In this document: one piece after another, positions 54,996-60,610 of the stretch
How positions within the stretch are numbered: the first letter of the stretch is position 1
Layout: every line of letters starts with the position of its first letter
Assembly: GCA_002839675.1 (NCBI GenBank)
Contig: PGYM01000001.1
Span: 1,095,602 to 1,159,601 of the forward strand
Direction of reading: 5' to 3'
Length of the DNA stretch: 64,000 nt
From: Methanomicrobiales archaeon HGW-Methanomicrobiales-1
GTDB lineage: Archaea; Halobacteriota; Methanomicrobia; Methanomicrobiales; Methanospirillaceae
Notes under the pieces: model-generated
What the model saw: only the letters and a program-made list of their open reading frames with translations
Database searches by the model: none
What the model was told of the DNA's origin: nothing
Program-made: the position numbers and the translations under genes

Positions 54996-56177
54996 TTATT
55001 CCTTCACCGAAAGCCCGTTCTCTCTTCCAATTTCTGCAAAAACTTCCGCGAGATACAGTGCCTGATTCTTTGTCATGCCGTACGTATTGAACTTCCAGAC
55101 TTTTGTTGCACCGGGAATCACTCCCGTCACGCCTTTTTCCTCAAGTGCCGTTGAAAAGTAGTAACCCCGTTTTTTATGGGTTTCTGCCACTTTGTCAAAG
55201 GAGCCGATCGTATCTGCCCGGGTCAGCGTGTGTTTGCGCGGCATTTCAGAGAGGATCTTTGTTCCGTCAACTGCAAGAAGCCCATCCACGACAATCCGGT
55301 TGTTCTCCAGTTCACGGTCAAAGTGCTTTACCCGTTCTTTCACATGAGGAAATGATGCCATCATCCCAATAAGGGTGACACCCATAAGCGTGCATCCCAT
55401 CATCTCCGGCTCCTTGATACCGAATTTCCGCTGGGTCACATCACCGGTAATGGCAGTGGTGCGGAAGACTTCTTCCGCCCGTTCCGCGGTTGTCGCAAGG
55501 ATCCCGGACGGTGCAGGAGCTGCCATACTCTTATGCCCGGAACCGACCACAAAATCCGCTCCAAGATCCTTTCCGTTCACCGGCATGATGCCAACGGTGT
55601 AGGCACCATTATAGAGCACGGGTATATCGTACTGGTGGCAGACCTTTGCGATTGCCTTTACGTCATGCAGGTTACCGTACTGGTAATCCACGTGATCGAT
55701 GAAGGCAAGGACAGGCGTCCTGCCGTGCTGTTTTTTTATTTCTTCGATCTTTAAGGCCGCAGCATCGGGTGTGATAATATGCTGGTCGTTTGCAGGAATT
55801 TCATAGCCAATACCCCAGGACCCTTCAACCGCAAGGAACTCAGTATAGTGCGAGAGCGCAGTGAGCAGAACCGGATCTCCTTTCTGGACATAGGTATGGG
55901 CAACAGCCTGGAATCCCCGCCGGGCGCCTGGCACGGTGCGGACCGCATCCATGTTCAGCCAGGCAGCAACATCCTGATGGAAATCTGCAATCGGGGGTTT
56001 GCTGATATAATCGAGCCGGTTGGGCTTGCGGCAGTTATCGCAGACCGAATACCCGTCACCGTACGCGATCACGGCTTTCATGGCATCGCCCGTGAGCCTT
56101 CCCCCGACCTGTATCGGATCGATATTGATGGCAAGTTCATCTACCTGTCTCGCCTCGATACCATTCGCACACCTCAT
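54996..56177 (-). CDS. pscS: Sep-tRNA:Cys-tRNA synthase
   Basis: Converts phosphoseryl-tRNA(Cys) to cysteinyl-tRNA with sulfide. The 393-residue PLP enzyme has the N-terminal DPIQVGGRLT and the Cys pair SVCDNC (residues 46 and 49), the PLP lysine in VGSGHKSMAAPAPSG (about residue 229) and a third Cys in MMGCTLMG. All three Cys considered important for sulfur transfer are present. Start overlaps the upstream 63-residue gene by 4 bases. SepRS is not in the window. Confidence 0.95.
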   Translation of the reverse strand: MRCANGIEARQVDELAINIDPIQVGGRLTGDAMKAVIAYGDGYSVCDNCRKPNRLDYISKPPIADFHQDVAAWLNMDAVRTVPGARRGFQAVAHTYVQKGDPVLLTALSHYTEFLAVEGSWGIGYEIPANDQHIITPDAAALKIEEIKKQHGRTPVLAFIDHVDYQYGNLHDVKAIAKVCHQYDIPVLYNGAYTVGIMPVNGKDLGADFVVGSGHKSMAAPAPSGILATTAERAEEVFRTTAITGDVTQRKFGIKEPEMMGCTLMGVTLIGMMASFPHVKERVKHFDRELENNRIVVDGLLAVDGTKILSEMPRKHTLTRADTIGSFDKVAETHKKRGYYFSTALEEKGVTGVIPGATKVWKFNTYGMTKNQALYLAEVFAEIGRENGLSVKE

Positions 56178-56365
56178 TTCAACATCTCCAGTTTCAATGA
56201 GCCGACCTGCCGTTCGAGATTTTCCAGCAATCGTTCTGCCTGCGCCCGCTGTTTTTCATCCAGTTCGTGCTGCGGTGCGGTCTCGCGGAGGATGACCCGG
56301 AGATCGGTAAGAGTATAGAGTGCCTGGAATGTCATGTCAACTGCCCGTTTTGACAATGGAATCAC
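56174..56365 (-). CDS. 63-residue helical protein coupled to SepCysS
   Basis: A small, charged, probably all-helical protein: MIPLSKRAVDMTFQAL, LTDLRVILRE, then a coiled-coil-like QRAQAERLLENLERQVGSLKLEMLK. Its stop overlaps the pscS start as ATGA, so translation is coupled, and the frame has normal composition. I recognise no family. A helper such as the tRNA-dependent cysteine factor SepCysE is a possible analogy by position, but no sequence match is claimed. Confidence 0.6.
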   Translation of the reverse strand: MIPLSKRAVDMTFQALYTLTDLRVILRETAPQHELDEKQRAQAERLLENLERQVGSLKLEMLK

Positions 56366-56448
56366 CTTACTAGTATTGGACTGTTATGAAATAAGTAACC
56401 GCTTTTTTTTATGCCGGAACACTGGGTATATCGTATCCTGCACGATAT

Positions 56449-56952
56449 ATGGGTAGGAAGGCGTTACCGTTGGCGTTTACCTGTCAGCAGTGCGGGGAGT
56501 GCTGCAGCTCCATGGGCGAGATCATTGAACTAATAGAAGAGTTCGAGCCCTTTTCGTTCCGGATCAGGTTTTCCGTTACCGGAGAAGAACGGATCGTATC
56601 GGTAGATCCTGAAAAACGGGAATTGTTCCGTTTTCAGGACATCCGATCGCAGCGGCCCATGGCATGCCCGTTCCTGCGGGAGACCGATTCCAAAAAATGC
56701 GTCTGTTCTGTCCACACGTCACGTCCCGACCTCTGCCGCCAGTATGCCTGCTATCGCATCCTGGTACTGGACACGCAGGAAAGAAAGATAGGGAAGGTGG
56801 CAGCGGCCTCACGATATTTTTCTTCAACAAACGACAAGCTTCGCACACTCTGGAACAGGGAGATTGCCGGAGTTGCGATACCGGACGAAACCTGCTGGGA
56901 AGAGCATGTGGAACAGGTACTTTGCCCGGCAGGATACCGGGTTGTGCGGTGA
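56449..56952 (+). CDS. YkgJ-type cysteine-cluster protein (1)
   Basis: A 167-residue protein with CQQCGECC near residue 13-20, CPFL, the CVCSVHTSRPDLCRQY region (about 84-99) and further Cys. This is the YkgJ pattern, thought to bind zinc or iron. Function is unknown. It is separate from neighbours and faces the polyamine operon across a 559-base gap. Confidence 0.85.
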   Translation: MGRKALPLAFTCQQCGECCSSMGEIIELIEEFEPFSFRIRFSVTGEERIVSVDPEKRELFRFQDIRSQRPMACPFLRETDSKKCVCSVHTSRPDLCRQYACYRILVLDTQERKIGKVAAASRYFSSTNDKLRTLWNREIAGVAIPDETCWEEHVEQVLCPAGYRVVR

Positions 56953-57511: not shown

Positions 57512-58954
57512 GTGGAATTTAAAAATAAGGTATTAATTATTGGTTATGGGGCAGTGTCCAAGTGCACACTCCCCATCCTGCTCCGGCATGTAAACATACC
57601 ACTTGAAAATATTACCATTATCGATTTTAAAGATATGGCGCCGGATCTCAAGGCGTGGATAACCGGGGGTCTCCGGTTTTTCAAGAGAAAGGTCACAAGG
57701 GACAATCTTGACCAGACACTCTCGGAATTTCTTGCCGATGGGGGCCTCCTGATTGACCTTGCATGGAACATTGACTGCTGCGAACTGGTGCAGTGGTGCC
57801 ATGACCATAACGTCATGTACGTAAATACATCGGTTGAAGCCTGGGATCCGGAAGCGGAGAAATTCACTGCCGGCCCATATGAAAAGACCCTGTATTTCCG
57901 GCAGATGAAACTCCATGAACTCACGAAAGACTGGCATGACGGTGCAACCTGCGTGGTGGATCACGGTGCAAATCCCGGCCTTATCTCTCATTTCGCACGG
58001 CAGGGACTCTGCGATATTGCGCGCAGGATGATTGCAGATGACATTGCCCCGGATCCGGAACTGATGAAGAACCTGATCCTTGAGCAGAATTTCGCCGGTC
58101 TTGCCATGGAAACCGGTGTAAAAGTCATCCACTGTTCGGAGAGAGATACCCAGATCTCCCGCTCACCCAAGATTGTCGATGAATTTGTCGGAACATGGTG
58201 TATTGAAGGACTCCGGGAAGAAGGGACCGCCCCGGCAGAGATTGGGTGGGGCACTCATGAAAAAGAGCTGCCGGATAAAGCCATTATCCCTCCGGTTGGC
58301 CCCAAAAACGAGATCCTGCTGACAAAGATGGGGATCAATACCTGGGTGCGCTCATGGCTTCCTCACCACGAGATTGTGGGAATGGTCATACGGCATGGCG
58401 AAGCATTCGGCATATCCGATCGCTGGACCGTATGGAAAGACGGCACCGCAATTTACCGGCCTACTGTGCATTATGCGTACCTGCCCTGTGATGCAACCGT
58501 TGCATCAATCCATGAGCTGCGGGGGAGAAATTACGAGCTGCAACCAAAACTCCGGATCTTAAATGACCGGGAGATTATCAGCGGATCGGATACTTTAGGC
58601 GCGCTCCTTATGGGCCACCCCTATAACTCCTGGTGGACGGGAAGTATTCTCTCTATCGAGGAAGCAAAAACCCTCGCCCCCGGCCAGAACGCGACTACGG
58701 TACAGGTCGGTCTCGGCGTGGTCACCGCGATCATGTGGATGATTGAAAATCCCAAGCGTGGGTTCTGCCTGCCCGATGACCTGCCCCATGAATTTGTACT
58801 GGATATTGCAAGGCCGTATCTTGGCGAATTTTACTCGTGCGCTTCAGACTGGACTCCGTTGAAAAACAGGGCGGTCTATTTCAAGGAGAATCCGGAGAAT
58901 GACTATGACCGGGAAGATGTCTGGCAATTCAAAAACTTCTTATTTGTGCAATGA
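57512..58954 (+). CDS. Homospermidine synthase-like enzyme
   Basis: A 480-residue protein that probably makes homospermidine from putrescine (NAD-dependent). The start is GTG at 57512 with GGGAGGT upstream. It has the NAD motif VLIIGYGAVSKCT at 7-19, LIDLAWNIDCCELV, VDHGANPGLISHFARQGL and a saccharopine-dehydrogenase-like barrel including SWLPHHEIVGMV. It matches homospermidine synthase in length. The downstream decarboxylase starts right after its stop, making a two-gene operon with a leader of about 100 bases. Confidence 0.88.
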   Translation: MEFKNKVLIIGYGAVSKCTLPILLRHVNIPLENITIIDFKDMAPDLKAWITGGLRFFKRKVTRDNLDQTLSEFLADGGLLIDLAWNIDCCELVQWCHDHNVMYVNTSVEAWDPEAEKFTAGPYEKTLYFRQMKLHELTKDWHDGATCVVDHGANPGLISHFARQGLCDIARRMIADDIAPDPELMKNLILEQNFAGLAMETGVKVIHCSERDTQISRSPKIVDEFVGTWCIEGLREEGTAPAEIGWGTHEKELPDKAIIPPVGPKNEILLTKMGINTWVRSWLPHHEIVGMVIRHGEAFGISDRWTVWKDGTAIYRPTVHYAYLPCDATVASIHELRGRNYELQPKLRILNDREIISGSDTLGALLMGHPYNSWWTGSILSIEEAKTLAPGQNATTVQVGLGVVTAIMWMIENPKRGFCLPDDLPHEFVLDIARPYLGEFYSCASDWTPLKNRAVYFKENPENDYDREDVWQFKNFLFVQ

Positions 58955-60181
58955 ATGAATCATGTAATGACAAAAATCGCAGTCGACGCAAAGAAGAAGA
59001 GAAAAAAGAAAGGGACTGATGACGGGGTCCATCATATCAGCGAAGCCCGGAAAGAACTGTTGCAGGACCTTACCCGGGAACATGGCACCCCCATCTTTGT
59101 CATTGATCATGAAAAACTCCGGGATAATTACCGGGAATTCCGGGAAAACCTGCCCAAAGTTCAGGTATATTTTGCGGTAAAAGCGAATTCCAACCCGGAG
59201 ATTGTCAGGACATTGTATGACATGGGCAGCAGCTTCGATGTTGCCTCCATGCCGGAGTTCATGATCGTTTACGAGAATATCCGGAAAATGCCTGCCAGGG
59301 AACGGCAGGACTGGATCTGGGACAAAATAATCTATGCAAATACGATCAAGCCGATAGAAACGTTAGAAGCACTGGATAAATACAACCCGTTAGTCACGTT
59401 CGACAATATTGAAGAGCTAAAAAAACTCCGCAAGCATGCACCCCATGCAGGGCTTATACTCAGGATACGGGTGCCCAATACCGGTTCTCTGGTTGAACTC
59501 TCCTCAAAGTTCGGCGCCCACCCGGGCGAGGCCGTGGACCTGATCGTTGCCGCCTTTGATATGGGACTTGTTGTGGAAGGCCTCAGCTTCCACGTGGGCA
59601 GCCAGTGCACCAATTTCGAAAACTATGTCCAGGCCCTGCAACTCTCCGCAGATATCATCAGTGAAGTAGAGACACGGACCGGACAGAAACTCCGGATTCT
59701 TGATATCGGCGGGGGCTTTCCCGTAAAGTATTATCCCGAGGTAAAATCGTTTAAGATACTTGCAAAACAACTGACTGCCGAGATCAAACGACTGTTCCCC
59801 AAGGATATGCAGATCCTTGCAGAACCCGGCCGTTTCCTGGTTGCCAATGCCTGCGAAGTTGTTGCAAAGGTTGTCGGCAAGGCCTTCCGCGACGGGAAAC
59901 CCTGTTATTACATCAACGACGGGGTTTACCACACGTATTCCGGCCAGGTCTTTGACCACAGTACGTACCCCGTCCTGTCTTTCAAGGAAGGAGAGACGCA
60001 CATCTCCGCTGTTTTCGGTCCAACCTGTGATGCCTTTGATACCATCACGCTTTCCGCGGAACTGCCGGATCTCGAGATCGGCGACCTGGTATATTCAGAA
60101 AATATCGGGGCCTACTCCCATGCCTCCTCAACCTACTTCAACGGGTTTCCACCGGCAAAGGTCGTGCATATCAACAAGTGA
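58955..60181 (+). CDS. Fold-III PLP decarboxylase, ornithine-decarboxylase-like
   Basis: A 408-residue alanine-racemase-fold decarboxylase. PLP lysine is in YFAVKANSNPEI (about residue 72), then SFHVGSQC, DIGGGFPVKY, LAEPGRFLV, the Cys of FGPTCDAFD (about residue 350) and a final ENIGAYSH. The FGPTCDAFD loop is the ornithine-decarboxylase type. A basic stretch KKKRKKK near the start may be a tail. ATG at 58955 or 58967. With the adjacent homospermidine synthase it gives ornithine to putrescine to homospermidine; lysine or other substrates are not excluded. Confidence 0.87.
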   Translation: MNHVMTKIAVDAKKKRKKKGTDDGVHHISEARKELLQDLTREHGTPIFVIDHEKLRDNYREFRENLPKVQVYFAVKANSNPEIVRTLYDMGSSFDVASMPEFMIVYENIRKMPARERQDWIWDKIIYANTIKPIETLEALDKYNPLVTFDNIEELKKLRKHAPHAGLILRIRVPNTGSLVELSSKFGAHPGEAVDLIVAAFDMGLVVEGLSFHVGSQCTNFENYVQALQLSADIISEVETRTGQKLRILDIGGGFPVKYYPEVKSFKILAKQLTAEIKRLFPKDMQILAEPGRFLVANACEVVAKVVGKAFRDGKPCYYINDGVYHTYSGQVFDHSTYPVLSFKEGETHISAVFGPTCDAFDTITLSAELPDLEIGDLVYSENIGAYSHASSTYFNGFPPAKVVHINK

Positions 60182-60214: not shown

Positions 60215-60610
60215 TTACGGCGAATTATTCCGGCAGGCCGGGCAGTTCAGGGCATAGTCACGGATACCCTCGTTCCATGGCGTAAACCCAATGCAGACTT
60301 TTGGTTTGGTGTCATGAATTTTACAGTAAACCTTTCCATCTTCCGCCCGCCAGAAAAACGGACAATAAGTCAATGACCGGCCATCTGGATCAGTCCAGTA
60401 ATCTATGCGGACAATACGGGAAAGATCTTCTTCGGAAATATTCTTCCCGGTGCATCGTTTCCGGTCGGTAAACCGGATCAGAACATGCTGCAGGATATCC
60501 CGGCGATCTGCCCGTATCCAGGGGATGAGATCTTCGATCATTCCTTTCTGCCCCCAGCCCCACTTCTCACAGCACCTGCCGCATTGCTGACAATCCTGAA
60601 CGGGAGTCAT
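60215..60610 (-). CDS. YkgJ-type cysteine-cluster protein (2)
   Basis: A 131-residue protein with CQQCGRCC at residues 7-14, CPFF, YCKIHDTKPKVC near residue 95-106 and a terminal CPAC. It shares the YkgJ layout with the protein at 56449 but differs in sequence, for example in the WGWGQKGM segment. It stands at the other side of the polyamine operon and converges on it. Function unknown. Confidence 0.85.
   Translation of the reverse strand: MTPVQDCQQCGRCCEKWGWGQKGMIEDLIPWIRADRRDILQHVLIRFTDRKRCTGKNISEEDLSRIVRIDYWTDPDGRSLTYCPFFWRAEDGKVYCKIHDTKPKVCIGFTPWNEGIRDYALNCPACRNNSP

Follow-up and report, generated by a model that had tools for sequence, protein, structure and literature searches.

A small gene overlapping pscS in a Methanomicrobiales archaeon encodes a predicted stand-alone homologue of the SepCysE N-terminal domain

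What is encoded by the short frame that runs into the start of the Sep-tRNA:Cys-tRNA synthase (SepCysS) gene pscS in Methanomicrobiales archaeon HGW-Methanomicrobiales-1, and what could its product do for the enzyme? The frame lies in the window analyzed here, a stretch of 64,000 nucleotides. A preliminary description of the sequence had predicted a helical protein of 63 residues, assigned to no known family, coupled to pscS and resembling a scaffold or adaptor, with SepRS and SepCysE mentioned as known partners of SepCysS. We refer to the gene as SepCysSn, the name introduced for the form that is split off before SepCysS, the fused form being called SepCysSN (Mukai et al. 2017, PMC5424206; 2022, PMC8762117).

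The gene and its conservation in Methanomicrobiales

The features of the locus are:

56174..56356 (stop included), minus strand: SepCysSn, 60 residues, putative stand-alone homologue of the SepCysE N-terminal domain (MSKRAVDMTFQALYTLTDLRVILRETAPQHELDEKQRAQAERLLENLERQVGSLKLEMLK); from the start codon conserved in 23 relatives, Foldseek and a PDB profile
56362..56366, minus strand: SepCysSn ribosome-binding site GGTGA; from GGTGA or a near variant 5-8 nt 5' of the start codon in relatives
56357..56365, minus strand: three extra N-terminal codons (GTG ATT CCA) of the 63-residue reading, most likely untranslated leader; from relatives such as L003 and L010, in which the GTG is out of frame
56174..56177, minus strand: ATGA stop/start overlap of SepCysSn and pscS; from the sequence and an overlap in 40 of 48 other loci
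54996..56177, minus strand: pscS, Sep-tRNA:Cys-tRNA synthase, 393 aa; from NF006810 (E = 4e-175), the only SepCysS of the genome

The pscS frame (56177..54996) was confirmed as SepCysS also by TIGR02539 (E = 2e-112), and a single match to the enzyme lies above the cut-off in this genome. As had been noted, the stop codon of the small gene (TGA, 56176-56174) overlaps the pscS start codon (ATG, 56177-56175). The length required correction. Read from GTG, the original frame (56365..56174) yields 63 residues, but this GTG is part of the GGTGA motif, and many relatives have it out of frame. The codon corresponding to TTG 56356 is ATG, GTG or TTG in all 23 relatives found first, each of which also carries the motif or a near variant of it. 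Because start codon and GGTGA are conserved and the frame of GTG 56365 is not kept, we place the predicted start at TTG 56356, 9 bases past the GTG, which gives a protein of 60 residues (MSKRAVDMTF...EMLK).

SepCysSn and pscS make up a short unit, and the gene after it, which is convergent, was recognized by eye as an ammonium transporter; a sigma-70 promoter scan was disregarded, as it is meaningless for an archaeon. The flanking region encodes a small cysteine-rich protein matching Pfam CxxCxxCC (56449-56952), a second one similar to it by eye (60215-60610), and two adjacent genes (57512-60181) that may be a polyamine operon, as they resemble by eye a homospermidine synthase and a decarboxylase of the ornithine/diaminopimelate type.

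Across 31 close sequences, the SepCysSn frame showed a pN/pS of 0.187, with 654 changes at third and 122 at second codon positions; in the five remaining frames of the locus, the ratios were 0.36-3.0. Absence of codon-level conservation, which the preliminary description had raised as an argument against the gene, is thus not what was found, nor is a frame lost or broken beside pscS in close relatives. As to the question raised earlier of whether the small gene always precedes pscS, all split copies examined stand immediately 5' of SepCysS. The coupling likewise holds up, with an ATGA or GTGA overlap in 40 of the 48 further loci and a gap of 2-5 nt in the other 8. By these measures of conservation, SepCysSn is a real and ancient gene, beyond chance.

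When 120 Methanomicrobiales genomes were searched with a profile, 115 gave a match, which was strong (E < 1e-13) in 112. Among the matched genomes, G069 and G056 carry the fused form of the domain only. The match in G067 was rejected as spurious, and this genome has no detectable SepCysS. Among the genomes that yielded no match, the SepCysS of G117 is fused and SepCysS was not detected in G038, G057, G061 and G103; genomes lacking a split copy have either no detectable SepCysS or a fused one. Domain and SepCysS counts were compared in 55 separately drawn genomes of the order and agreed in 54 (77 domains and 76 SepCysS in total); the exception was G013, where a shortened SepCysS frame of 193 codons carries an additional domain. 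We add to the earlier picture that, as judged by these searches, the domain, split or fused, accompanies nearly every Methanomicrobiales SepCysS in a one-to-one count.

Two loci deserve separate mention. In one Methanomicrobiales bin, two contigs each hold a split SepCysSn-SepCysS pair (L005 and L012), and the two pairs differ; either the pair was duplicated or the bin is mixed. A Methanoregula-like SepCysSn-SepCysS locus (L006) lies on a contig whose label reads uncultured delta proteobacterium, and misbinning is the most likely explanation.

Relationship to SepCysE and to fused SepCysS

The AlphaFold model (46 sequences) is a two-helix hairpin with a pLDDT of 96.6, in agreement with the helical protein predicted before. 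When 350,542 PDB chains were searched with Foldseek, ranks 1-5 were all N-terminal domain (NTD) chains of Methanocaldococcus jannaschii SepCysE with both models used (5x6b_F, 3wkr_C/D/G and 3wks_D; probability 0.99-1.00, TM about 0.75), the better-fitting pairs superposing at 1.1-1.2 A over 49 columns. The E-values of these chains were 0.06-0.2, and the next match was a designed protein (E about 0.9). Sequence profiles pointed to the same protein: with split and fused copies as query, MJ1481 (SepCysE) was the top hit among 177,635 PDB sequences (E = 0.011 and 0.015). The alignment covers residues 54-97, inside the NTD (35-101), and the two share an APxHEL motif. This match appeared once distant and fused copies were in the profile; the search with close relatives only gave no match, and Pfam and NCBIfam scans with the single sequence returned noise only. 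Per-sequence Pfam scans of the wider set of 46 members matched 5 to DUF2100 (best E = 0.007); we did not use this as evidence because the matches were weak and stood amid equally weak ones to unrelated families.

The E-values from Foldseek and from the profile are each modest owing to the short length of the protein (60 residues), and helical hairpins are common folds; the assignment rests on the agreement of independent methods. By this agreement, SepCysSn is the stand-alone counterpart of the SepCysS-binding domain of SepCysE, corresponding to about residues 44-103 of MJ1481, with SepCysS binding predicted by homology. It is not a new family: a family comprising SepCysSn and the SepCysE N-terminal domain is described in the main texts of PMC5424206 and PMC8762117.

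Sister genomes possess a second SepCysS, about 450-530 codons long, that begins with the SepCysSn domain (hhalign of split versus fused domain, probability 97, E = 7e-11). In a tree of 108 SepCysS proteins, built by a quick method with SH-aLRT support only, all domain-bearing SepCysS, split or fused, formed one clade. SepCysS of other clades (≤43% identical to that of the window) gave no domain match, but the 14 such proteins in the tree had been picked for lacking one and thus carry the label "none" by construction. Within the tree we count three label changes in all and, as a further addition, two apparently separate split lineages.

The surroundings of the fused genes were also inspected. 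In 10 of 10 checked loci of the order (L061, L062, L063, L064, L066, L068, L071, L074, L076 and L078), fused SepCysSN is immediately preceded by a tRNA-Cys (GCA) gene, usually within 10-30 bases; outside the order, L144 also has a tRNA-Cys gene, at a greater distance. Two fused frames are cut short, one at about 117 codons (L167 in G096) beside genes that by eye resemble cysteine synthase and serine acetyltransferase, and one at 193 codons (L165 in G013) beside a MetB-like gene, also by eye.

These results bear on whether the frame is a leader whose sole role is to set translation of pscS. The stop-start overlap is what such a leader would be expected to have, but its amino acid sequence is strongly conserved, the domain is fused in frame to SepCysS in relatives, some lineages have a gap instead of the overlap, and the predicted fold finds a specific match. 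Judged from sequence and model, this reading is already contradicted, and we give it practically no chance.

Absent parts of SepCysE and the predicted role

In M. jannaschii SepCysE, residues 1-24 bind SepRS, 35-101 SepCysS and 111-213 tRNA, and tRNA binding was not detectable for SepCysS with SepCysE lacking its C-terminal domain (Chen et al. 2017, PMC5688128). SepCysSn begins near MJ1481 residue 44, so that the SepRS-binding helix (1-24) and the linker are absent, and the gene ends after the NTD, without the C-terminal Toprim-like tRNA-binding domain (111-213). SepCysE/DUF2100 was not found anywhere in the genome of the window. SepRS is present there, encoded on another contig (contig 2 of G000) than pscS, and has ASPEG in place of the M. 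jannaschii docking loop ILDEF and ARCGK in place of ALVSN (loop positions from PMC5688128). The SepRS of Archaeoglobus fulgidus, which has no SepCysE, likewise lacks the docking loops, and the SepRS examined here resembles it at these positions. Methanococcus maripaludis is a class I methanogen with SepCysE, and its SepRS keeps the loops as VMDEI and AFVSN. The absence of SepCysE-docking residues from the local SepRS, as read from these alignments, is new here.

Of the scaffold or adaptor role suggested before, the relation to SepCysE thus stands, by Foldseek and the MJ1481 profile, whereas a bridge from SepRS to SepCysS is not supported. SepCysE homology and the coupling to pscS would fit a protein that binds both enzymes and channels Sep-tRNA as full SepCysE does. 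But because the SepRS helix, the tRNA domain and the docking residues on SepRS are all lacking, such a bridge is unlikely; with the SepRS gene on a different contig as well, we regard this reading as very improbable.

We propose instead that SepCysSn most likely serves SepCysS as a structural subunit, in dimeric form, with neither a bridge to SepRS nor a transsulfursome of the class I type, because the helix that grips SepRS and the domain that grips tRNA are missing. By homology, two copies of the two-helix hairpin seen in the model would pair at the twofold axis of dimeric SepCysS, giving a 2:2 SepCysSn-SepCysS enzyme as suggested by PDB 3WKR, 3WKS and 5X6B. SepCysSn would be translated first, and the ATGA coupling may supply SepCysS at about 1:1. 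Its likely job would be to build and stabilize the SepCysS dimer; it may further shape the tRNA entry surface of the enzyme.

Two arginines one helical turn apart, R20 and R24, occur without exception in the 87 split and 32 fused copies compared, and MJ1481 has D63 and Y67 at these positions. That the family has two invariant arginines that M. jannaschii SepCysE lacks is, from these alignments, a further addition of this work. They could suit an adaptor that docks on SepCysS and recruits another factor, a sulfur donor or tRNA, as would the tRNA-Cys genes adjoining related fused copies. This reading comes without a candidate partner, however, and the arginines could simply face SepCysS; we consider it unlikely. 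A more specific suggestion is that in methanogens without CysRS SepCysSn is a tRNA-handling subunit and not a leftover, with R20 and R24 gripping Sep-tRNA at the SepCysS twofold axis in place of the lost SepCysE C-terminal domain. This is speculative and would have an outside chance of being correct.

CysRS was not found in the genome of the window (97.7% complete), which puts SepCysS on its only visible Cys-tRNA route; of the 120 genomes of the order, only 12 gave a CysRS. According to reviews (PMC9499178), methanogens of classes II and III lost SepCysE and acquired CysRS. In Methanomicrobiales, the third of SepCysE that binds SepCysS occurs almost throughout, and CysRS is rare. Because of these two distributions, SepCysS with SepCysSn appears, from genome content, to be on the only Cys-tRNA route in most of the order. 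The minimal SepCysSn-SepCysS pair is therefore a good small system for Sep-tRNA handling without a transsulfursome.

Comparison with known systems

By its sequence, the gene of the window is a member of the already named SepCysSn kind. It is homologous to the SepCysE NTD, stands as a separate gene before SepCysS, is truncated at the C-terminus and has a fused SepCysSN counterpart in sister genomes. The SepCysSn and SepCysSN of Mukai et al., as presented in the main texts, share with it the position immediately before SepCysS, the size of about 60 residues, the homology and the fused form in relatives, and no feature given there sets the gene of the window apart. In the literature searched, the name was met only in PMC5424206 and PMC8762117, whose main texts do not name Methanomicrobiales and in which we found no functional test of SepCysSn.

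SepCysE of class I methanogens (MJ1481; PDB 3WKR, 3WKS, 5X6B and 5X6C; Pfam DUF2100) has the same two-helix N-terminal domain, which in SepCysE binds the SepCysS dimer, and the same APxHEL motif. Full SepCysE also has the N-terminal helix that inserts between SepRS subunits and the Toprim-like tRNA-binding domain, neither of which is found in SepCysSn (about 60 versus 216 residues), and it differs at D63 and Y67, the counterparts of R20 and R24. PylSn, the stand-alone N-terminal adaptor peptide of PylRS in the main text of PMC5424206, follows the same logic of a small helper that is either separate from or joined to an enzyme working on tRNA; its enzyme is unrelated to SepCysS, and the likeness is one of organization.
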